Positions 43,178-63,055 of a DNA stretch of 64,000 nucleotides are shown piece by piece. The notes beneath the pieces were generated by a model. It was not told the origin of the DNA. It searched no databases and worked only from the letters and a program-made list of their open reading frames with translations. The stretch comes from Paulownia fortunei (taxonomy: Eukaryota; Streptophyta; Magnoliopsida; Lamiales; Paulowniaceae): assembly GCA_019321725.1 (NCBI GenBank), contig CM033120.1, forward strand, positions 5,399,694-5,463,693, given 5' to 3'. Position 1 is the first letter of the stretch. Each line of letters opens with the position of its first letter. Made by a program: the position numbers and the translations under genes.

Positions 43178-44789
43178 TGATAAGTGCATATTTTGACATA
43201 TTTTTATATCAAATCCTTTATACTTTTCTTGCTTTATTCTTGTTAATATTCTTGTTTTATTAATGTTTTGTGTTAGGGAATAAATGGAAGCATGTTTTCA
43301 GACTTGTGCAGTTTTTGTAATTTGAGCATAACTTCATGATCAAAAGCTCTATGGACCTGAAGCTTGTTTCATTTGAAAGCCAAGAGATAGAGGTACAACT
43401 TTTATGTTGGAGGCTCAGCCCAATTCAGTCTTGATGATAGCAGAAAATTCGTCCAAGTAATTACACAAAATGGATCACCAAAATTCGGATCAGAGTTCAG
43501 CCCAGTATTGACTTATTTTACCAATTCGGTTATATATCTTGAGCCCAAATTTATTTTGGTCTGAAATTCGGATATGTTATACCCAAGAGGTAAATAAACA
43601 AGTTTGCTGAAGACAAGATGGTGTGAAAATGTGTCGAAATGGTAAAACCATAGGCTGCAAGTTGCTGCTGATGTTACAGGGCGGCTCTTGGACATGACTC
43701 GGTAATTTGACCATATCTCCTTCATCCGATCGCCAAATTTGACAAAAGATATATGAAAATATATCAGCGTTGAAAGATCTACAATTTTTATTCTTTCACG
43801 TATCTTCAAAATCTGGCTGTATCTGACCGAAAAATGTAATTCAATTCAGTGGATGAGAAATTTGTGTAACAACTTACCAACTCTTGGCAACTAGCATACC
43901 ACTTGATTAACCCCTCCATTATTTGTTTGGCCTCTAGCTTACTCCAAGTACTATAAATAGGCCATGTATTCAGCTTGTAAGGGGGGGTAGAGGGTTTCTT
44001 TAGGCTAAGTTATCTAGTTTGTATGTTTTCTAGTATTGTAAGTTTTCTAGTAGTAATAGAAATGCATTCTCTAGTTTCTCTTATATTTTTAGTCTTTGTT
44101 ACTTTTATTATGTCTTTCTAAATTTTATTTTGCTGAGGAAAAAGGGTGAATCTCTTGATGGAGGAAGAGAAATGGTTATAAGGGTAGAAATTGTTTAAGT
44201 ATGTTGTATTATTATTATTATTTTTGATCTAAACCCTACTTATTTTTGTGGTGATTCTTGATTTATGTATCTCCAATGGCACAACAAATACTTGGGTTCA
44301 TTTAGCTTATTGTACGGTTTTACCCCACCGACTGCTAATGTGAAACCTTGATTTGTTGTTGACGAAGGAGTACATAAATGCTTGATCCCATAAATAAGTG
44401 TTGGCGTTAAGAGATAATTTGCAATAGTAAGACAATATCATGATTACCTTATTGCATGAGTTACTTGATAATATCTTCCCATTGGAACCTTCATTATGTA
44501 TGGATTCCAATTGTGGCAATTAATAGAGGTAAAAAGAATAAATAACCATTTATCTATCCAAAACTCAAGAGTGGATCCCTAATCCTCAGTACTTTTATTA
44601 CTTCGGTTTTTTCTTTAGTTACATCATACATTAATTGTTCATATATTTTTGATTCACATAAACTCCATCTTTTTATAAATATAAACTTGAATTCTTCAAA
44701 CAACTTCCCTGTGGATCGACCTCGGACTCACGAGAAATTTATTACTTACTACAACCTGCACTTGGGTTTGCAACCTTAAAGTTGTAGCA
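43178..44789 (+). repeat. 5' LTR of element D
   Basis: Starts TGATAAGTGC and ends GTTGTAGCA. Compared with 53,647-55,258, the differences I found are substitutions near 43,594, 44,121 and 44,360, single-base homopolymer indels near 43,797 and 44,610, and a GA insertion before the G run at 43,981. Confidence 0.95.
43951..43961 (+). promoter_or_regulatory. TATA box of element D LTR
   Basis: CTATAAATAGG is a near-ideal plant TATA box, repeated in the 3' LTR at about 54,419. Transcription would start about 30 bases downstream, close to the G run at 43,981. This would be the promoter for the whole element including the LOG gene. Confidence 0.75.
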
Positions 44790-44795
44790 AGTTTT

Positions 44796-44814
44796 TGGCG
44801 CCGTTGCCGGGGAA
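44796..44814 (+). promoter_or_regulatory. Primer binding site of element D (tRNA-Asp)
   Basis: TGGCGCCGTTGCCGGGGAA is the classic Athila primer site, complementary to the 3' end of tRNA-Asp. It lies six bases (AGTTTT) after the LTR. Confidence 0.92.
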
Positions 44815-44989
44815 GGCAAGGTAAGTATTCAGGTTTGTTAATATTTTTCCTTTGTAAATATAGTTTGTTTATTTTCTTTATGGATATATGGTTATATGGT
44901 ATCGTAGTCATAATTCTCGACGTTTAGTAAGAAATAATTCCGAAACTTTGTTTGGAAATTTGTTTGAATCATCTCCACACACTTCCACC

Positions 44990-45904
44990 ATGGCTGAAAA
45001 TGAAAGTGTCCAGGATGAAAATGAGAATCAACAGGTGCGTACCATGCGTTATTACTTGCAACCTCCTCGAAATTCTTCTCCTTCTTGTTTCATTTTTCCT
45101 CTAAATGCAAATAATTTTCGATTCAAGTCAGGTATGATCCCTTTACTTCCTAATTTCCATGGTTTAGACTCTGAAAGTCCTTACTTGCATTTAAAAGAAT
45201 TTGATGAAGTATGTGCCACTTTTGATGATCAAACTTGCACAAATGAGATTGTTAAGCTCAAATTATTTCCTTTCTCTTTAAAAGATAAAGCAAAAAATTG
45301 GCTTAATTCTTTAAAACCTAGGTCAATTGGCACTTGGCAAGAAATGCAAGCTGAATTCTTGAAAAAATTCTTTCCAACTCATAAAACTAATGCTTTGAAA
45401 AGACAAATTCAAAATTTTTCTCAAAATTCGAATGAAGTTTTCTTTCAATGTTGGGAAAGATTTAAAGATTTGTTGAATTCATGCCCACATCATGGTTTTG
45501 AAAAATGGCGCTTAATTAGTTTCTTTTATGAAGGTTTAACTCCTGAAACAAAACAATTTGTTGAAACAATGTGTAATGGTGAGTTTCTTGATAAGGAACC
45601 TGATGAAGCCCTAGAATACCTAGATCATTTGGCAGAAAACTCTCAATCATGGCATAGTGTTAATTCTTCCGAAGGTTCTATTAGATCTAATCTTGCTAAT
45701 AGTAATAAAGGAAAATATTACCTTAGCCAAGAAGATGATCTAAATGCTAGACTTGCTAGTTTAACAAGAAAAGTTGAAGCCATGGAACTTAAGAAAGTAA
45801 AGGAAATCAAATCTGTGCAAGAGGAAGAAGTTTGTAGCAATTGTGAACTTTTGGGCACTCCACCAATGAATGTCCAAACCTTCCAGTACAAGCAAATTTT
45901 ATGA
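44990..45904 (+). CDS. gag of element D (5' part of the gag-pol frame)
   Basis: The frame is open from 44,888. The ATG at 44,990 (ACCATGGCTG, good plant context) is the likelier start. Encodes the retrotransposon gag domain: LPNFHGLDSESPYLHLKEF, then LFPFSLKDKAKNWLNSL, FLKKFFPTHKT, CWERFKDLLNSCPHHG and FVETMCNGEFLDKEPDEALEYL. It forms the particle. A zinc knuckle spans about 45,835-45,880, but its second half is read in the next frame: CSNCELLG is in this frame and the following His and Cys are in the frame that opens the protease ORF. The break fits loss of one base in or near the G run at about 45,855. The overlap of the two frames is otherwise only the ATGA at 45,901. Confidence 0.9.
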   Translation: MAENESVQDENENQQVRTMRYYLQPPRNSSPSCFIFPLNANNFRFKSGMIPLLPNFHGLDSESPYLHLKEFDEVCATFDDQTCTNEIVKLKLFPFSLKDKAKNWLNSLKPRSIGTWQEMQAEFLKKFFPTHKTNALKRQIQNFSQNSNEVFFQCWERFKDLLNSCPHHGFEKWRLISFFYEGLTPETKQFVETMCNGEFLDKEPDEALEYLDHLAENSQSWHSVNSSEGSIRSNLANSNKGKYYLSQEDDLNARLASLTRKVEAMELKKVKEIKSVQEEEVCSNCELLGTPPMNVQTFQYKQIL

Positions 45905-46878
45905 ACACATTCAAAAAGCCTTTCCATTCTCCATATTCTGAAACTTACAATCCACAATGGAGAAATCATCCCAATTTCAGTTGGCGAGATGATAACCGTG
46001 CCCAACCACCGCATTCACAAAAACCACAAAACTTTCATTCTTATCCACCTCCACATACAAAATCCATTGAGGAGACTTTGCAAGCATTTATGCATGAACA
46101 AACAAACATCAATAATCAGACTTCACAAGCTATCAATGAGATCAGAAGCACACTTTCAACACTGACAACTTCTTTGCGTACTCATGAAAAAGGTAAATTT
46201 CCTGCTCAACCTCAACCTAATCCTTCTACTCAGTGTCATGTTTCTTCTTCAGGTGAAAATGCAGTCAAGGAGGCTAATTCAGTTACAACTCTTCGGAATG
46301 GAAAAGTTGTTGACAAGACTATTCATCCCAAGGAGAAAGTTTCTAATCCACCTCCAGAAATGAAAAATGGAAATAGTCTTGACGATGAAGGTAAGTTTGA
46401 AGAAGGTAAGCGTGAAAATGAAGAAAAAGAAAAATATTTACCTCCAGCACCCTTTCCTCAAAGATTGCAAGCAACTCAGAAATTGAACTCAAATGCTGAA
46501 ATTTTTGAAATTTTTAAACAAGTCAAGATTAATATTCCATTATTGGATGCAATCAAGCAAGTTCCACCTTATGCCAAATTTTTGAAAGATTTGTGTACAA
46601 TCAAAAGAAAACATCATGTACAAAAGAAGGCATTTTTAACTGAAAGTGTTAGTTCAATCATTCAACAATTCACTCCACCCAAGTACAAAGATCCAGGTTG
46701 TCCAACCATTTCATGTATCATAGGAAACACTAGAATAGAGCGTGCTTTGCTTGATCTTGGTGCTAGTGTAAATCTTCTACCTTTCTCAGTTTATGAACAG
46801 TTAGGTTTGGGAGAACTTAAAACAACTTCTGTTGTACTCCAACTAGCTGACCGTTCGATTAAAGTTCCAAAGGAATAG
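45901..46878 (+). CDS. Gag C-terminus and aspartic protease of element D
   Basis: Begins with a Pro/Asn/His-rich linker, then a coiled and acidic stretch with EEGKRENEEKEKYLPPAPFP. The protease follows: NIPLLDAIKQVPPYAKFLKDLC, then the catalytic LLDLGASVNLLPFSVYEQLG (around 46,748-46,805), where D-L-G replaces the usual D-T-G as in other Athila elements. The frame stops at 46,876 within the conserved protease end and continues one frame away at 46,887. A single missing base in the GG run near 46,873 explains this. It would process Gag-Pol. Confidence 0.9.
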   Translation: MNTFKKPFHSPYSETYNPQWRNHPNFSWRDDNRAQPPHSQKPQNFHSYPPPHTKSIEETLQAFMHEQTNINNQTSQAINEIRSTLSTLTTSLRTHEKGKFPAQPQPNPSTQCHVSSSGENAVKEANSVTTLRNGKVVDKTIHPKEKVSNPPPEMKNGNSLDDEGKFEEGKRENEEKEKYLPPAPFPQRLQATQKLNSNAEIFEIFKQVKINIPLLDAIKQVPPYAKFLKDLCTIKRKHHVQKKAFLTESVSSIIQQFTPPKYKDPGCPTISCIIGNTRIERALLDLGASVNLLPFSVYEQLGLGELKTTSVVLQLADRSIKVPKE

Positions 46879-46886
46879 TAGAAGAT

Positions 46887-48257
46887 GTGTTGGTACAAAT
46901 TGATAAGTTTTACTTTCCAGTTGATTTCATTGTTTTGGACACAGAGCCTGTTGCACAAACACATACACAAATTCCTATCATTTTGGGTCGTCCTTTTCTT
47001 GCAACTTCAAATGCTTTGATCAATTGTAGAAATGGTATTTTGAAGTTATCATTTGGAAATATGACTTTGGAACTAAATGTGTTTAATGTTTGTATGCAAC
47101 CTGCAGAAGATGTCGAAGTACATGAAGTGGATTCAATTGAGGAACTTGTTCATGAATACTTTACTACTACTAACTCTTCAGATTCTTTGGAGACTTGTTT
47201 TGAAAGTGAAAGTATTTATAAAAAGGAACACACTAATACTATCTCTGAATTTTTGCAGGTACAAGAAAAATATTTTTGGAAGCCAAGGTTCGAAGAACTT
47301 TCATCATCAACAGTAAAATCTATTCCATCAAGTATTAAAGCTCCCGTGGTTGAATTGAAACCTTTGCCAGTTAATTTGAAATACTCTTTCTTGGGTGAGA
47401 ATGAAACTTTTCCAGTAATAATTTCTTCCAAACTCGATGCATATCAAGAAGGTAAGTTGATCGAAACTCTGAAAATGCATAAGAATGCTTTAGGATGGAC
47501 CATTGCTGATATTAAAGGTATTAATCCTTTCATTTGCACACATAACATCTATCTAGAGGAAAATGCTAAACCATCTAGAGAAATGCAACGAAGGCTAAAT
47601 CCTAATATGAAAGAAGTAGTAAGAAATGAAGTCATTAAACTCTTAGATAATGGAATCATTTATTCTATTTCTGATAGCAAATGGGTAAGTCCTACTCAAG
47701 TTGTACCTAAGAAATCTGGAGTTACTGTAGTCAAGAATGAGAATGATGAATTAATTCCAACTAGGACTGTTACTGGTTGGCGAATGTGCATTGACTATAG
47801 AAAACTCAACTCAGTTACTAGAAAAGATCATTTTCCATTACCTTTCATGGATCAAATTTTAGAAAGAGTTGCAGGACACGAATTTTATTGCTTTTTAGAT
47901 GGATATTCTGGATATAATCAAATTGCAATTGCACTTGAAGATCAAGAGAAAACAACTTTTACATGTCCTTTTGGTACTTTTGCATATCGAAGGATGCCTT
48001 TTGGATTATGTAATGCACCAGCTACATTCCAACGATGCATGCTTAGTATTTTTAGTGACATGGTTGAATGTTTTCTTGAAGTCTTCATGGATGATTTTTC
48101 TGTTTTTGGTAATTCATTTGATGATTGCTTATCTAATTTAGAAAAGGTTTTGATCAGGTGTGAAGAAAAGAATCTTGTGCTCAATTGGGAGAAATGTCAC
48201 TTCATGGTAACAACTGGTATTGTTCTGGACACATATTATATCATAGGAAGGTATTGA
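46887..48257 (+). CDS. Protease end and reverse transcriptase of element D
   Basis: Starts with the rest of the protease region (VDFIVLD, ILGRPFLATSNALINCRNG). RT motifs follow: QRRLNPNMKEVVRNEVIKLL (about 47,588), WVSPTQVVPKKSG, GWRMCIDYRKLNSVTRKDHF (47,778), YCFLDGYSGYNQIAIA (47,888) and FGTFAYRRMPFGLCNAPATF. The catalytic FMDDFSVFG is at 48,087-48,113, with both aspartates present. The frame ends at 48,255 but resumes in the same frame by 48,260. Three small indels within about 35 bases, cancelling out, explain the interruption. It copies the element RNA into DNA. Confidence 0.92.
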   Translation: MLVQIDKFYFPVDFIVLDTEPVAQTHTQIPIILGRPFLATSNALINCRNGILKLSFGNMTLELNVFNVCMQPAEDVEVHEVDSIEELVHEYFTTTNSSDSLETCFESESIYKKEHTNTISEFLQVQEKYFWKPRFEELSSSTVKSIPSSIKAPVVELKPLPVNLKYSFLGENETFPVIISSKLDAYQEGKLIETLKMHKNALGWTIADIKGINPFICTHNIYLEENAKPSREMQRRLNPNMKEVVRNEVIKLLDNGIIYSISDSKWVSPTQVVPKKSGVTVVKNENDELIPTRTVTGWRMCIDYRKLNSVTRKDHFPLPFMDQILERVAGHEFYCFLDGYSGYNQIAIALEDQEKTTFTCPFGTFAYRRMPFGLCNAPATFQRCMLSIFSDMVECFLEVFMDDFSVFGNSFDDCLSNLEKVLIRCEEKNLVLNWEKCHFMVTTGIVLDTYYIIGRY

Positions 48258-48290
48258 GTTGATAAATCTAAAATTGAGTTAATTGCCAAT

Positions 48291-49130
48291 TTGCCAACAC
48301 CAAAGACTGTGAAGGAGATTAGATCATTTTTAGGACATGCTGGTTTTTATAGAAGATTTATCAAAGATTTTAGTATAATATCTAAACCTTTGTGTAATCT
48401 TCTAACAAAAGACACTATTTTTGAATGGACTGAAAACTGTGAAAATGCTTTTGTTAAGCTTAAAAGCATGCTTACGTCTGCTCCAATCATGCAGCCTCCA
48501 GATTGGACTTTACCTTTTGAAATAATGTGTGATGCTAGTGATTATGCTGTTGGAGCTGTCTTGGGACAAAGAAAAGATAAAAAACCATATGTTATTTACT
48601 ATGCAAGTAAAACTTTAAATGGTGCTCAATTGAATTATACAACAACTGAAAAAGAATTACTTGCTGTAGTTTTTGCATTGGATAAATTTCGATCTTATCT
48701 TGTTGGCTCACCAATTGTTGTTTTCAGTGATCATGCAGCTTTGAAATATCTTTTGTCAAAAAAAGATGCTAAACCAAGACTGATTAGGTGGATTCTCTTA
48801 CTCCAGGAATTTAATGTTACTATTCGAGATAAAAAGGGAGTAGAGAATGTAGTGGCTGATCATTTGTCGAGACTTGTTTGTGATGACTCATTTCAAACCA
48901 CACCTATTAATGACACTTTCCCTGATGAACAATTATTTAACGTTTCTATTTTACCTTGGTTTGCTGACATTGTTAATTTTCTTGTGACAGGAAAGATGCC
49001 ATCACATTGGAACTCTCAAGATAAAAAGAAGTTTTTGACTGAGGTTAAAAATTTTATTGGGATGATCCATACCTATTCAAATATTGTCCGGATCAAATCT
49101 TTCGAAGATGTGTGCCTGACAATGAGATAG
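48291..49130 (+). CDS. RNase H and RT connection of element D
   Basis: Begins in the thumb/connection region ([19 protein letters not shown]). The RNase H motifs are [20 protein letters not shown] (48,521), [39 protein letters not shown] and [15 protein letters not shown] (48,835). The catalytic acids are present. It removes the RNA strand during reverse transcription. The frame shifts near 49,104 into the integrase frame, consistent with one T missing from a run. Confidence 0.92.
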
Positions 49131-49579
49131 GTAATATTGTCAAATTTTGTCATTCAGAAGCATGTGGTGGTCATTTTTCTGTAAAGAAAACTACTGCAAA
49201 AATCTTGCAATGTGGATTTTATTGGCCAACTCTTTTCAAAGATACTTACACTTTCTGCAAAAGTTGTGAAAATTGTCAAAAGTTAGGGTCCCTTTCAAAG
49301 AGAAATATGATGCCCCTACACCCTATCCTAGTGATTGAAATCTTTGACTGTTGGGGTATTGATTTTATGGGGCCATTTCCATTATCATTTGGTTTTCTTT
49401 ACATATTGGTTGCCATAGATTATGTTTCAAAATGGATCGAGGCAATTCCTTGTCGAAACAATGATCACAAAATAGTGATAAAATTTTTGAAAGAAAATAT
49501 TTTAAGTCGATTTGGAATTCCTAGATCTATTATCAGTGATGGGGAAAACATTTTTGTAACAAAGTTTTCGGAACTTTAA
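49112..49579 (+). CDS. Integrase N-terminal and core part of element D
   Basis: Has the HHCC zinc-binding domain ([20 protein letters not shown] and CKSCENCQK) and then the catalytic core. The first Asp is in [10 protein letters not shown] (49,352-49,381) and the second in [11 protein letters not shown] (about 49,538). The frame ends at 49,579 with an in-frame stop created by a one-base loss in a T run near 49,575. The catalytic Glu is in the next ORF. Confidence 0.92.
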
Positions 49580-50244
49580 TGAAGAAATATGGAATCATAC
49601 ATAAAGTTGCAACCCCTTATCACCCTCAGACAAATGGACAAGTTGAACTTGCAAATAGGGAGATAAAACAAATTTTGGAGAAAACAGTTAACCCAAACCG
49701 TAAAGATTGGTCTCTTAGACTTACCGATACACTTTGGGCATATAGAACTGCTTTCAAAACATCATTAGGCATGTCTCCTTATAGGATAGTTTATGGAAAA
49801 CCTTGTCATTTACCTGTTGAACTTGAACATAAAGCTTATTGGGCAATCAAAATGTTTAACTTCAACCTTGATGAAGCTTCAAAATTGCGCAAATTGCAAA
49901 TCAATGAACTTCAAGAACTGAGAAATGATGCATATGAGAATTCTAAAATTTATAAAGCAAGAATCAAAGATTTTCATGATAATAAAATTTCAAGAAAAAT
50001 ATTTGAGGTTGGTCAAAAGGTTTTGCTTTATAATTCTCGATTGCATTTGTTTCCTGGAAAATTGAGATCAAGGTGGAGTGGTCCTTTTGTTGTAAAAAAA
50101 GTATATCCTTATGGGGCGATTGACATTGAGAATCCTAGAAATGGTAACATATTCAAAGTAAATGGACAAAGAGTTAAACCATTTCTAGAAAATCAATTTT
50201 CACAAGAGGAAATTCTTTTTCTTTCTAACCCTTGTTATGATTAG
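49579..50244 (+). CDS. Integrase C-terminal part of element D
   Basis: Carries the remaining core ([20 protein letters not shown], with the catalytic Glu at about 49,645) and then [21 protein letters not shown] and [23 protein letters not shown]-like C-terminal domain follows ([18 protein letters not shown]) and a genuine stop lies at 50,242-50,244. No chromodomain follows, as expected for Athila rather than chromoviruses. Confidence 0.92.
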
Positions 50245-50249
50245 TGTTG

Positions 50250-50449
50250 TATATATTTTTTTTATCTGACATTATTTTTTTTTTTTTTCTTCTCTTCTTC
50301 TTTTATTTTTTTATTTTTCTTTCCCGGTTAAATGGCGGATAACGGTACTCCGTGGCTATAAAAGTCGGACTTGTCAGTTTCCCAAACAACTGAAATCTTT
50401 GTACAAATTTTCTTTGCTTTTCTCATTCTCTTTTCTTGTTATTTTCAAA
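50250..50449 (+). other. Polypyrimidine-rich spacer after pol in element D
   Basis: No gene. Long T and TTC runs at 50,269-50,325 and the 'ttttcttgttattttcaaaATG' at 50,433-50,452 are what a splice acceptor region would look like. In Athila elements the third ORF is thought to be expressed by splicing, so a spliced transcript for the downstream ORFs is plausible but unproven. Confidence 0.5.
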
Positions 50450-51004
50450 ATGGGTGACATATTTCTAACTCTCAAGAAGCGATTTCCTTTTCTTCCTAAA
50501 AATGCAATTTTGAAAATTTATAAAATCAGGATTGAAAGATTGAGGATGCTTATGCACAAGGGCATCCGGAGGACATACGATGGATAATTGAAGCAAAGGT
50601 AAGGGCAGGTGAGTTTTCACATGAGTTTCCAGATTTGCTTACTAGATACATGTCTGGTTTTGGTAAAAGCACATTCAAAAAAACGAAGGGCGAAAAAAAT
50701 GAAAGTTTGTCATATTTGTGCTAGATGGACTTGCAACACAAAGTGTCGTTCTTTAGGAATGGTCTCTAAAAATCGAGAAGATAAACTTAAATTCATTATG
50801 GATGGACTGAGTAAGGAGTCTTTAGATCACATTATATTGACTCTTGAGACGCATTCATGTGGATTGGTACAACGTGCAATTCTTGATTTATGGGATCGTT
50901 TTCGAAATGAATATGAGCTTTATAGTCTTGGGAATCTGACATTAAAAGACCCTGTTTGCCAGTTTATAAGAAAACTGGATGGGAAGCATATCCTCGACCC
51001 ATAG
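50450..51004 (+). CDS. Unrecognised third ORF of element D, Cys-containing, frameshifted
   Basis: I do not recognise this protein. It starts at ATG 50,450 (MGDIFLTLKKRFPFLPKNA). It switches frame near 50,560 (then EDIRWIIEAKVRAGEFSHEF) and again within the A runs around 50,677-50,699. The last part has the cluster CHICARWTCNTKC (C-x2-C-x4-C-x3-C), a possible zinc site, followed by helical sequence ending at a stop at 51,002. It sits where Athila elements carry their envelope-like ORF. I see no signal peptide and no clear transmembrane segment, so it does not look like an envelope protein. Each frame change fits a one-base indel in a homopolymer. Confidence 0.6.
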
Positions 51005-51237
51005 AGGGCGTTTAAGCCGTTACTGGACGTAAAACCAGAGGAAGATGTGAGCCACAATCACAACTACATGTACATACACGTGGTAGTAGGTAATTTTTAA
51101 ATTTCGTATGTGTCCTTATTTTCAACCTTTTTGACAAAAGAAAAAGACATGCAATAAATGTATTCCCTGTTCACACCTCAATAAATATCACCGTACTCAC
51201 TCTATTTTTGCACAACTTATTTTCAAAAAAAAAAAAA
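51005..51237 (+). other. Spacer between the third ORF and the LOG gene in element D
   Basis: No ORF. It ends in an A run of about 13 bases immediately before the LOG start codon. 'tattttcaaaaa' at 51,219 resembles the pyrimidine-plus-A context before ATG 50,450. Confidence 0.5.
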
Positions 51238-51889
51238 ATGGAAGTTTCTTCAACTCGCAAATTTAATTCCATTTGTGTTTTTGTGGATCCAATCTAAAAA
51301 AAATGGTGAGTTTATAGGGGCAGCCAATAATCTTGGTAGAACTTTAGCAGAAAGAAAAATTCATTTAGTGTATGGGGGAGGCAGTTTGGGGTTAATGGGG
51401 AGTGTTGCTATTTCTGCTTATGTAGGAGGTGTCAAAGTTCTGGGAGTTATCCCAAAATGTTTAACAGTACAGAATATCACAGGTATGACCATTGGAGATG
51501 AGCTGAAAGTGTCACACATTCAGGACAGAATGCCTAATATGTTAAACAATGCGGATGCATTCATCATTCTACCTGGCGGTTTTGGTACACTGGAAGAATT
51601 ATTCCAAATTGTCTCTTGGGCACAACTCAACATTCACCAAAAACCTATAGGTATTCTTAATGTTAATGGTTTTTATGATGGTTTGCTATCTTTTGTAGAT
51701 CATGCTGCGAAAAAAGGGTTTATTTCAACTTCTGCGAGAAGAATCATCATTTCTGCTCCAACACCTGACCAGCTGATTGATCAACTTCTAGCATATGTGC
51801 CAAAACCTGATCCAGCCTTGGCCAATGTGGATTGGTCCAATAGGAACAATGGTCGAAAATGCAAATTGAAATTGACTCTCAGTCTGTGA
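51238..51889 (+). CDS. LOG: Captured LOG-family cytokinin riboside 5'-monophosphate phosphoribohydrolase
   Basis: LOG enzymes release active free-base cytokinin from its nucleotide in the cytosol. From ATG 51,238 the frame reads MEVSSTRKFNSICVF, the usual LOG N-terminus. It then shifts twice within 25 bases, at a T run (about 51,278) and an A run (about 51,296). From there it is open to the stop at 51,887-51,889, with LVYGGGSLGLMG, GVIPKCLT, QDRMPNM, the signature PGGFGTLEE (51,572-51,598) and WAQLNIHQKPIGILN. Catalytic Arg (QDRM) and Glu (TLEE) are present. Total length is about 217 codons, matching the family. There is no intron, whereas plant LOG genes have several, so it was probably captured from spliced mRNA. 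It lies on the element's coding strand, downstream of pol. Confidence 0.93.
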
Positions 51890-52875
51890 TACTTATTGTT
51901 AATGATTTTATCTAATAGTATGTGTGTTTTTTTTTTGTTGTTTCAGCTTTATTAGCCGCATTTCAGGTGATATCTTTCAAACTCTACTTTCCTATCTATT
52001 TTTGACATTGGGGACAATGTCTCGATTAGGTTGGGGGAGGGATAATTGATATCATGACTTGTATATTCAATGTGTTTTTTTTTTTAGTATTTAAAAAATA
52101 TATATATATAATAAAAAATAAAAAAAAAATATAATATAAATCAAGCGTGTTTTTTTTATGGGTCCGTTGAAAGCATGAAAAAAAGGTGGCTGAGTAAAGG
52201 GTAATTGTAACACTCTTGAGACGCATCCCTATTTTTTGCATAATATGGCAGGTTTGTAAAGTTTTTAACAAGTGTTTGTGAATTACCAATATTTTTTTGA
52301 GTCGTATAGGTTCTTCCAACTTCAATGATTAAAATTAAGCATGAATAATATGGTTTGATTGATGATGGGTGTTGTTTTGGACTTTGATGTTGTTATTTGG
52401 TTAATATATTTTTGCGATAATTATACTCAAATTTTATTTTGCACAAATAGTTATGTTATTTAGTGTGAAGACAATCATGTCAAAATATATAGTTCTTATG
52501 CCCTTACTCTAATCATCACTTGAATCTTCAACATGTAGGGGTGAGTATTAGAACTTTTACTTTTGGTCTGTCGAGGCGAACGACTGATAGTGCACCACTA
52601 GAAAAATGATTAAGGCATTAGGCTTTCTAGCACCATTGCCAAATCAGCTTGTTCCCTATATGATGTTTAAAGAAAACATCCCCCTAGTAAACCACTTTGA
52701 GCCTTACAATAAATAAATATTTTTTTTTGTAACCATATCTTTTTACCTAGCCTAAATACACTATTATCCAACCCTTGTTCTAAAAATGATTGGAGTTTAA
52801 GAGACATTCAATTGAAAGCTTGGACTTACAAAAGAAATTCAGGTTGGAAGATAAGTGTGGGGAGTTTCTCTTTAA

Positions 52876-52906
<31 letters not shown>

Positions 52907-53608
52907 AAAACAATATAAAAAAAAAAAGTTGCAAAGTGCTACAAGTTGCAACTAAAAATGAGATGTTGCAAGATGAATAAGAGGGGTCCAATTCAATAAC
53001 AATAGACTCCAGTGTGAAATTTGTGGAGTTGGAGAATTCTTCATCGATAAATTTTATGTCTCTGATTCCATGAAGTTTTTAGAACCTTTGTTGCATCCTA
53101 TCCTTTTATTTCTTAGCTACATCACCACCCTTTGGCCCCATTACAACCTTTGTTTAAAGACCTTTTGATTTCGTGTGGTGCCTTCAGTGTAGTGGAGATT
53201 TGCACCAAAGGAAGAGCCTATGATGTTTAACTTTTCTGTTAGAGATTGGGTGATGGTTTTGTAAGGTTTTATGAGAATTCACTTATTTGAAACATGCATA
53301 GTTTCATCACTATTGACATTAACTGTCCACACACACACTTGAGTATGATTATTGTGGAAATGTATTGATTTTTGAATGACTAAGAGTTAAACTCAACACT
53401 TGATTTTATTTCCATATTACTTTGTTGCTTCATGAGAATAAAAGTTGGAAGATAGTTATTATAGGTGTTTGTAGGTATCACTGCTGGAAACCTTCACGAG
53501 ACTATAACTCGTCCTCTATGGGCCACCTAGGGGTTTAAAGGCTTGTTGCATATGCTAAATGCAATCGTGATTTCCTACGAAAGTGGATTAGTTTATGTTT
53601 GTTTTAAG
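51890..53608 (+). other. 3' non-coding region of element D
   Basis: No gene seen. 'ttggggacaatgtctcgatt...ggttgggggaggg' at 52,008-52,040 is a tract typical of Athila elements after the last ORF. A/T-rich runs lie at 52,075-52,140 and an A tract at 52,871-52,928. 'ttgtttcag' at 51,940 is splice-acceptor-like. Confidence 0.65.
52871..52928 (+). repeat. A-rich low-complexity tract
   Basis: Almost pure A with a few G and one CAATAT interruption. It is liable to length error in assembly. Confidence 0.8.
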
Positions 53609-53646
53609 CTTGCTCGAGGACAAGCAAGGGTTAAGTGTGGGGAATT
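53609..53646 (+). promoter_or_regulatory. Stem-loop plus polypurine tract before the 3' LTR of element D
   Basis: CTTGCTCG, loop AGGA, CAAGCAAG (53,609-53,628) forms an 8-bp stem with one C-A mismatch. It is followed by GGGTTAAGTGTGGGGAATT, the plus-strand primer tract. Same architecture as element A at 8,630-8,670. Confidence 0.75.
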
Positions 53647-55258
53647 TGATAAGTGCATATTTTGACATATTTTTATATCAAATCCTTTATACTTTTCTTG
53701 CTTTATTCTTGTTAATATTCTTGTTTTATTAATGTTTTGTGTTAGGGAATAAATGGAAGCATGTTTTCAGACTTGTGCAGTTTTTGTAATTTGAGCATAA
53801 CTTCATGATCAAAAGCTCTATGGACCTGAAGCTTGTTTCATTTGAAAGCCAAGAGATAGAGGTACAACTTTTATGTTGGAGGCTCAGCCCAATTCAGTCT
53901 TGATGATAGCAGAAAATTCGTCCAAGTAATTACACAAAATGGATCACCAAAATTCGGATCAGAGTTCAGCCCAGTATTGACTTATTTTACCAATTCGGTT
54001 ATATATCTTGAGCCCAAATTTATTTTGGTCTGAAATTCGGATATGTTATACCCAAGAGGTAAATAAACAAGTTTTCTGAAGACAAGATGGTGTGAAAATG
54101 TGTCGAAATGGTAAAACCATAGGCTGCAAGTTGCTGCTGATGTTACAGGGCGGCTCTTGGACATGACTCGGTAATTTGACCATATCTCCTTCATCCGATC
54201 GCCAAATTTGACAAAAGATATATGAAAATATATCAGCGTTGAAAGATCTACAATTTTTATTCTTCACGTATCTTCAAAATCTGGCTGTATCTGACCGAAA
54301 AATGTAATTCAATTCAGTGGATGAGAAATTTGTGTAACAACTTACCAACTCTTGGCAACTAGCATACCACTTGATTAACCCCTCCATTATTTGTTTGGCC
54401 TCTAGCTTACTCCAAGTACTATAAATAGGCCATGTATTCAGCTTGTAAGAGGGGGGGTAGAGGGTTTCTTTAGGCTAAGTTATCTAGTTTGTATGTTTTC
54501 TAGTATTGTAAGTTTTCTAGTAGTAATAGAAATGCATTCTCTAGTTTCTCTTATATTTTTAGTCTTTGTTACTTTTATTATGTCTTTCTAAATTTCATTT
54601 TGCTGAGGAAAAAGGGTGAATCTCTTGATGGAGGAAGAGAAATGGTTATAAGGGTAGAAATTGTTTAAGTATGTTGTATTATTATTATTATTTTTGATCT
54701 AAACCCTACTTATTTTTGTGGTGATTCTTGATTTATGTATCTCCAATGGCACAACAAATACTTGGGTTCATTTAGCTTATTGTACGGTTTTACCCCACCG
54801 ACTGCTAATGTGAAACCTTGATTTGTTGTTGACAAAGGAGTACATAAATGCTTGATCCCATAAATAAGTGTTGGCGTTAAGAGATAATTTGCAATAGTAA
54901 GACAATATCATGATTACCTTATTGCATGAGTTACTTGATAATATCTTCCCATTGGAACCTTCATTATGTATGGATTCCAATTGTGGCAATTAATAGAGGT
55001 AAAAAGAATAAATAACCATTTATCTATCCAAAACTCAAGAGTGGATCCCTAATCCTCAGTACTTTTATTACTTCGGTTTTTCTTTAGTTACATCATACAT
55101 TAATTGTTCATATATTTTTGATTCACATAAACTCCATCTTTTTATAAATATAAACTTGAATTCTTCAAACAACTTCCCTGTGGATCGACCTCGGACTCAC
55201 GAGAAATTTATTACTTACTACAACCTGCACTTGGGTTTGCAACCTTAAAGTTGTAGCA
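53647..55258 (+). repeat. 3' LTR of element D
   Basis: Same length as the 5' LTR (1,612 bp) and near-identical. It ends GTTGTAGCA and is followed by ATGATGATGGGCC of copia E's leader. Confidence 0.95.
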
Positions 55259-56224
55259 ATGATGATGGGCCTTTTATTTCTATGTGATCCCCTTAAGCCA
55301 AAGTGGATCAATAGTTAATCTATTCCTATCGATTGCATATATACATCCCATGCATATATGGGCCTTCTTTTCTCGTTTTTCAATCTTGCTCCTTCTTCTT
55401 GTGTTGTCCACCAAAAATATAAAAAGAAAACCTCACCAATTATGTTATACAATTATTATCCTATAAGAAACCTTATATCAAACACAAGGGGATGTAAATA
55501 AGAGGGAGAGAGAAAATATAATGAAAAAATAGAGAAAGAAACTTACAAGCCTCATGTTAATCAAAACCCAAATTAAAACCAAAAACATAAAAATAAATCC
55601 AATCACATTGTCATGGCTCCATGATCATCCATATCAAAACCCAAATTAAAACCAAAATTATAAAAATAAATCCAATCACATTGTTATGGCTCCATGATCA
55701 TCCATGTTTAACTAAAATCGTGATAATAAAAAGCATGTAGATTTACATTTATTTTGTGTACCGATTTTAAATTTGGGATTAATAATTTCAAATATCCTCA
55801 TAAAATAATTTTAATTAAATAAGAATTAATAGTTTAATTTCAAAATGTATTTTAAATTTTTAAAAATTAAGAAACATAAAATCTGGATACCAAACCCAGT
55901 GGCGTCACGCACCTAACACTTATGTTACAACACTAAACTCACAGAATTAAAAAATACAGATGGTGTCGCAGTGCCGGATCGTCAGTGTCGTGGTGCTTCT
56001 AAAAAATTTCCATCACTCTGCTAGGCTGCGGCTCTAGTCACGTGACTAACAGATTTATTTTTTTACCCAATTTTTCAAGCTTTACTCATTAAATTAAAAA
56101 ACCCTAAATATACAAATTGCTTAAACAATTTTATTGCACATAAAAGATCAATTAAATGCATAATTTTCATAAAAAACTAAAGCTATAGATATCAATTATG
56201 CGGTAATCTAGGCTATGATACTAC
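55259..56224 (-). other. Leader of copia E, part nearest the 5' LTR, with primer site
   Basis: No gene. On the minus strand the primer site is near 56,205-56,219 (complement of GGCTATGATACTA, an iMet-type site). It is homologous in reverse to copia F's leader (21,394-22,297). It contains the 73-bp duplication at 55,561-55,706. Confidence 0.7.
55561..55706 (-). repeat. 73-bp tandem duplication in copia E leader
   Basis: Units start at 55,561 and 55,634 with TCAAAACCCAAATTAAAACC and differ at only a few positions. Confidence 0.9.
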
Positions 56225-62955: not shown

Positions 62956-63055
62956 NNNNNNNNNNNNNNNNNNNNNNNNNNNNNNNNNNNNNNNNNNNNN
63001 NNNNNNNNNNNNNNNNNNNNNNNNNNNNNNNNNNNNNNNNNNNNNNNNNNNNNNN
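62956..63055. other. Assembly gap of exactly 100 N
   Basis: A round 100-base run of N is the convention for a scaffold gap of unknown size. The rest of the host gene may be missing here. Confidence 0.98.

Follow-up and report, generated by a model that had tools for sequence, protein, structure and literature searches.

An LTR retrotransposon of the Ty3/gypsy type in the window, by which we mean the whole 64,000-nucleotide stretch of Paulownia fortunei DNA analyzed here, carries a broken copy of a divergent LOG-family gene. Our preferred reading, to which we give a probability of about one half, is that this is a young, defective element copy with a LOG-fold accessory protein that, to judge from its relatives, would have been retained with a changed base specificity and a putative nuclear tail. 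LOG in plant LTR elements is cargo of an already known kind. A 2011 abstract by Steinbauerova reportedly describes two Athila-like elements with LOGL4-like open reading frames (ORFs). The first-pass annotation of this DNA had taken such cargo to be unreported, which is contradicted by the available text of a 2022 paper that places LOG (YgdH) domains in LTR-element consensuses of Citrus and Populus and cites Steinbauerova 2011 (Genetica) (PMC9289625).

A young Ty3/gypsy element encloses the LOG frame

The element occupies positions 43178-55259 (+), with paired LTRs, a primer-site-like stretch and the order gag, reverse transcriptase, RNase H and integrase all present. Its features, apart from the LOG frame, are as follows.

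43178..44790, +, 5' LTR, reading TG...CA when the last base is omitted (self-comparison against 53647-55259)
44796..44813, +, primer-binding-site-like stretch TGGCGCCGTTGCCGGGGA, from the sequence
44888..45904, +, gag ORF (PF03732, E=1.9e-24)
45901..46878, +, protease-region ORF, weak (PF13650 at E=0.05, below the cut-off; nothing at E<=0.001)
46887..48257, +, reverse transcriptase ORF (PF00078, E=2.1e-28)
48291..49130, +, RNase H ORF (PF17917, E=9.9e-38)
49112..50244, +, integrase region in two ORFs (49112-49579 and 49579-50244)
50609..51004, +, ORF of 131 amino acids between integrase and LOG, without a Pfam match up to E=1
53632..53646, +, polypurine-tract-like stretch directly 5' of the 3' LTR
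53647..55259, +, 3' LTR (self-comparison)

Self-comparison gave 99.57% identity between the two LTRs over 1,615 alignment columns, with 3 mismatches and 3 gap openings. The LOG frame runs in the sense direction, follows the integrase ORFs and ends about 1.8 kb before the 3' LTR, and the earlier claims that it is flanked by near-identical LTRs and belongs to a young LTR element are borne out. When the LTR is read as TG...CA, the 4 bp ATGA stand at both outer LTR borders, possibly as a short target duplication of the element. The pol region is spread over four ORFs in three frames. Its first integrase ORF (49112-49579) matches PF17921 (E=1.2e-13) and PF00665 (E=2.1e-09), and the second (49579-50244) matches nothing at E<=0.001, with PF24312 (0.1) and PF13683 rve_3 (0.14), both below the cut-off, appearing in a search to E<=1.

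The window element is plausibly, and probably, a member of the Athila lineage. The stretch TGGCGCCGTTGCCGGGGA at 44796..44813 resembles what we take to be Athila/Tat primer sites, and an extra sense ORF of the Athila kind, here LOG, open but with its start missing, lies between pol and the 3' LTR. Extra sense ORFs at this place occur outside Athila too (available text of PMC7264820 and PMC6317226).

Several further observations concern the surroundings of the LOG frame. The ORF at 50609-51004 is perhaps a decayed extra ORF. Polypurine-tract-like stretches also occur inside the element, at 52012-52050 and 52852-52866, the second being a 93% copy of the tract at 53632-53646; these could be traces of past recombination, or the ends of nested elements, on either side of the LOG segment. 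Comparison of the repeats in 50245-53646 showed no obvious target duplication belonging to the LOG segment itself, and an old one may escape such a comparison. Elsewhere in the window, long direct repeats of 79-89% identity (19178-21377/34387-36590, 14060-15556/38226-39623, 2795-4760/22929-24855 and 24855-25710/28708-29609) are probably LTRs of older nested elements, and an assembly gap of 100 N lies at 62956-63055.

The window copy of LOG is broken near its start

51238..51294, +, LOG frame start from ATG, then a stop codon; its first 15 residues are 100% identical to P0001, after which the frame is lost
51275..51889, +, open part of the LOG-family ORF, 204 amino acids (PF03641), in a frame that differs from that of the ATG
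51374-51400, +, GGGSLGLMG, from the window translation
51527..51532, +, catalytic Arg codon (51527-51529), then Met at the canonical Lys site
51572..51607, +, PGGFGTLEE (51572-51598) and Gln at the canonical prenyl-pocket Glu site
51596-51598, +, catalytic Glu codon, from the window translation
51851..51886, +, C-terminal tail with a basic cluster and LKLTLSL (LxLxL; 51866-51886)

The open part matches Pfam PF03641 at E=1.1e-37 over its 204 amino acids, on which ground we rejected a chance ORF, and its closest solved structure is At2g37210/LOG3 (E=2.1e-54). The LOG signature, the GGGS-LGLMG loop and the catalytic Arg and Glu that the first-pass annotation had recognized are all located in it. 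It is 99% identical to the 217-amino-acid Paulownia fortunei proteins P0001-P0003.

The full family length that had been claimed for a single frame is not there. The ATG frame at 51238 runs for 19 codons and stops at codon 20, with 13 stops in that frame across 51238-51889, and the remainder lies in another frame; a tblastn search with an intact relative likewise matched the two LOG parts in different frames. The frame had also been called intronless, which holds for the open part (51275-51889) and only there. Homopolymer runs adjoin the frame break, so an assembly error is possible at this point: the window copy is either broken near its start or mis-assembled, and as assembled it cannot make the full protein. 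No further LOG pieces were found in the window at E<=0.01.

Relatives of the window copy recur in many copies

We compared the window copy with the best 120 of 7,999 scored candidates, picked by their similarity to it, a similarity to which the tail itself contributes. The canonical control consisted of the best 120 matches to a profile built from fragments of AtLOG3 and AtLOG8, and the bacterial control of the best 80 of at least 578 LOG matches. By a hand count of names, the 120 relatives comprise 40 rows of Reevesia pubescens, 19 of Orobanche (three species), 6 of Rehmannia, 4 of Paulownia fortunei, 3 of Populus, 2 of Xanthoceras, 1 of Melia, 1 of Diplodiscus and 44 without an organism name.

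The Reevesia rows carry 17 chromosome labels (hand count), and because they amount to 40 distinct clusters from one genome, they point to repeat-borne copies. One Orobanche row represents a cluster of 244 sequences, and clusters made at 90% may mix species. Element context is seen directly in the window and is inferred elsewhere from copy number and from the Citrus and Populus elements in the available text of PMC9289625; the group of the window LOG is probably element-borne. Populus proteins fall within this group, and they may not be the element-borne ones of that paper. A search for proteins joining LOG to other domains among 956 candidates of about 573-1,823 amino acids gave no scoring match, a result that speaks neither for nor against element context. 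Single-protein queries retrieved no LOG copies from IMG/VR, and an alignment query retrieved a single partial match, L001, which covers query residues 119-194 at 42% identity and is truncated by the end of the contig.

Thinning the best 120 at 85% identity left 34 rows, 29 of them 212-221 amino acids long, with a mean identity of about 60% within the thinned group and about 46% between it and the likewise thinned canonical LOGs. These numbers bear on the idea that LOG is a functionless passenger, a host gene copy dispersed only through multiplication of the element. Passenger genes can ride in LTR elements, and the broken frame of the window copy would fit; the shared length, the identity of about 60% and the near-invariant catalytic residues would be unexpected under drift, with the reservation that such conservation is overstated because sequence collections favour open frames. 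The relatives moreover form a single group in both trees described below, and not scattered captures, and we regard a mere passenger as very unlikely.

In trees of these samples the relatives group outside canonical plant LOGs

In a first tree, 40 rows of the element-type group (from the best 120) and 18 canonical rows (from 120) were separated by a split with support of 100/100. Within the former, clades were recovered for Lamiales (Paulownia, Rehmannia, Orobanche and two unnamed rows; 100/98), for a Populus-containing set (100/97) and for Reevesia (100/100). The clades match plant kinship; the order between them was not resolved, and bootstrap values had yet to converge completely. In a second tree, rooted on 21 bacterial rows, 10 canonical plant rows formed one clade (100/98), made up of the LOG1/3 type with Cryptomeria, plus LOG8, and 18 element-type rows were placed as the sister of that clade (100/88).

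As judged from these sampled alignments, the element-type rows are one group outside the canonical plant LOGs. The placement agrees with two character states shared by the bacterial rows and the element-type group. In both, the x of PGGxGT is commonly Phe or Leu, against Tyr in canonical plant LOGs, and the second residue past the catalytic Glu is commonly Phe, against Leu in the canonical proteins. It is possible that attraction of fast-evolving rows to the root produced the outside placement, and possible too that element-type LOGs were captured several times from one host lineage. A fresh capture of a canonical gene of the LOG1/3/8 type was rejected, given the mean identity of about 46% and the position of the group outside canonical LOGs. 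No donor LOG gene was found among the relatives examined. One Xanthoceras protein, P0013, may be close to the donor: it keeps the Lys discussed below, has no tail and is placed by both trees as the sister of all other element-type rows. Its gene model, with LOG in tandem, is unusual.

Catalytic residues are kept and base-pocket residues replaced

In CgLOG, catalysis has been proposed to rest on Arg99 and Glu122, and Met96, Lys100 and Glu121 hold the adenine; the presumed prenyl site consists of Met96, His97, Lys100, Glu125 and Trp129, identical in AtLOG3, OsLOG and CpLOG (available text of PMC4979012). According to the same text, alanine at the AMP-binding and catalytic residues, with Lys100 listed among them and Ser19 excepted, nearly abolished activity. 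In a type-II bacterial LOG, replacement of the Lys by Ala abolished activity on AMP (available text of PMC5379747).

Relative to type I LOGs, the window copy has PGGxGTxxE, the catalytic Arg and Glu and Trp at the Trp129 site of CgLOG, and it departs from them with Met at the Lys100 site and Gln at the Glu125 site. The same pattern runs through its best 120 relatives, a group that also retains the phosphate/ribose site. The catalytic Arg is present in 112/120 and the catalytic Glu in 117/120, Thr119 in all 120 and Glu121 in 116/120. At the Lys100 site we found Lys in only 3 rows, with Met in 60, Ile in 40 and Leu in 15, and at the Glu125 site Glu in 2, with Gln in 73 and His in 40; the His97 site has His in 54 rows and the Trp129 site Trp in 101. 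After thinning (n=34), Lys is kept in 2 rows, the Glu125-site Glu in 1, the catalytic Arg in 32 and the catalytic Glu in 33. Among the best 120 canonical plant LOGs each of these sites is invariant (120/120), and among the best 80 bacterial matches Lys, the Glu125-site Glu, Trp, Arg and the catalytic Glu are found in 80/80 and His97 and Glu121 in 79/80. The three rows of the best 120 that keep Lys are the two from Xanthoceras and P0084, which keeps it despite having the tail.

Since Arg and Glu are retained while Lys and the pocket Glu are replaced, and since the Lys is needed in a type-II LOG, element-type LOGs may have kept catalysis while changing what base they bind. They might instead be ordinary cytokinin-activating enzymes, hydrolyzing cytokinin riboside 5'-monophosphates and increasing free cytokinin at sites of element expression; the altered pocket would then only tune side-chain preference. 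The LOG fold and the conserved Arg, Glu and phosphate loop would suit such an enzyme, as would the variation of prenyl-pocket residues among LOG types, mutants of which (Phe152, Phe153 and Met185) still acted on AMP (available text of PMC5379747). However, the Lys, which none of the 120 canonical or 80 bacterial rows lacks and which a type-II LOG requires to act on AMP, is mostly Met, Ile or Leu in the element-type group, and the Glu is mostly Gln or His. We consider the ordinary enzyme unlikely; judging by its residues, element-type LOG probably has a role other than standard cytokinin release. The first-pass description of the gene as plainly cytokinin activating does not suit a divergent group in which two pocket residues, invariant in the canonical LOGs examined, have been replaced.

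A basic and LxLxL tail follows the LOG fold

An AlphaFold2 model of the intact P0001, built from a 31-row alignment, has the LOG fold (mean pLDDT 86.1, pTM 0.82) and superposes on LOG3 (2a33) at 0.9 Å rmsd and on AtLOG8 (1ydh) at 1.5 Å. Residues 1-5 and 204-217 fall below pLDDT 50, and the tail, predicted to be disordered, would fit a short linear motif.

An LxLxL tail with at most 3 more residues after it was found in 91/120 of the best relatives, against 0/120 canonical and 0/80 bacterial rows, and a basic cluster within the last 26 residues in 109/120 against 1/120 canonical. In the thinned rows the conserved tail lies after a variable linker, and the commonest letters by per-position count give a K-R-K-L-D-L-T-S-like L-x-L. 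LxL is the ending of 29 of the 34 thinned rows; choosing rows by this ending fixes the last two Leu, and within the choice Leu stands five from the end in 26/29 and Lys ten from the end in 26/29.

Basic residues beside a C-terminal LxLxL look like a nuclear signal plus an EAR repressor motif. The LxLxL of EAR motifs occurs as LKLTLSL in the window copy and is shared by the same 91/120 relatives, and element-type LOG is, from these tails, probably nuclear. The tail resembles that of plant EAR-motif repressors, but Pfam recognizes no DNA-binding domain in P0001 and P0078, which have LOG domains alone above the cut-off.

Exact LxLxL is absent from 29/120 rows, among them all 19 named Orobanche. 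The Trp129 site has Arg in 17 rows, every one of them Orobanche-named (17 of the 19), and nearly all other rows have Trp. Together the change of Trp to Arg and the absent exact LxLxL make a further change in this parasitic plant lineage.

A protein that has lost catalysis altogether could still bind nucleotides and act as a scaffold, its tail recruiting corepressors of the TOPLESS type and letting the element dampen a host response such as cytokinin signalling or silencing. Such a role would draw on the conservation of the basic cluster and LxLxL past a variable linker and on the replacement of a residue that one assayed LOG requires for its activity. A dead enzyme, however, would have no need of the Arg kept in 112/120 rows or the Glu kept in 117/120, and the tail of all 19 Orobanche-named rows lacks the exact motif; we hold the pure scaffold to be improbable.

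Discussion

The mechanism that we propose for the preferred reading, a retained LOG-fold accessory protein in a defective element copy, starts from an ancient capture from one plant LOG lineage into LTR elements, where selection would have kept the captured gene as an accessory protein. Instead of the cytokinin ribotides usual for LOGs, this protein would bind, hydrolyze or sense a different nucleotide 5'-monophosphate. Its tail would serve as a nuclear signal and may also bring in corepressors of the TOPLESS type. The element could gain either in nucleotide handling during reverse transcription or through a dampened host response. A fuller version is tentative and, taken whole, doubtful: eudicot LTR elements would have held on to a single LOG lineage, captured before the rosids and asterids parted and descended from a branch older than the split of LOG1/3 from LOG8. 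With a rewired pocket, an intact catalytic dyad and an added nuclear and EAR-type tail, the protein would metabolize or sense nucleotides and recruit host corepressors.

The closest known systems are the Citrus and Populus elements of PMC9289625, which likewise hold a LOG-family domain within plant Ty3/gypsy LTR elements; the available text of that paper makes no mention of a changed pocket, a basic and LxLxL tail, a group outside canonical LOGs or members in Lamiales and Malvales. The orchid Ty3/gypsy elements with an m6A RNA demethylase ORF in the same text have also acquired an enzyme domain, but of another enzyme. With canonical plant LOGs (type Ia; AtLOG3, 2a33, and AtLOG8, 1ydh) the element-type group has in common the fold, PGGxGTxEE and the catalytic Arg and Glu; unlike them, it has Lys100 and Glu125 (CgLOG numbers) replaced, bears the basic and LxLxL tail and shares about 46% mean identity. 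Among the titles and abstract openings listed, with subscription journals mostly outside the search, there were no other reports of LOG in LTR elements or of the tail or pocket changes, and the available text of the two papers on extra ORFs (PMC7264820 and PMC6317226) contains no word starting with "LOG". The available texts on a blackgrass PF03641 gene from a region rich in eccDNA (PMC10606437) and on mungbean gene-family changes that include the LOG enzyme family and have no link to retrotransposons (PMC11670757) are beside the point here.

Additional ORFs of unclear use are frequent in plant LTR elements, and the LOG ORF is one with a known fold, an active site and short tail that lend themselves to testing, and close relatives in distant eudicots. 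If the preferred reading is true, it would show in a specific instance how a mobile element adapts an enzyme of a hormone pathway. Annotators should be wary, since many LOG genes predicted in Reevesia, Orobanche, Rehmannia and Paulownia probably belong to elements and may not produce cytokinin.
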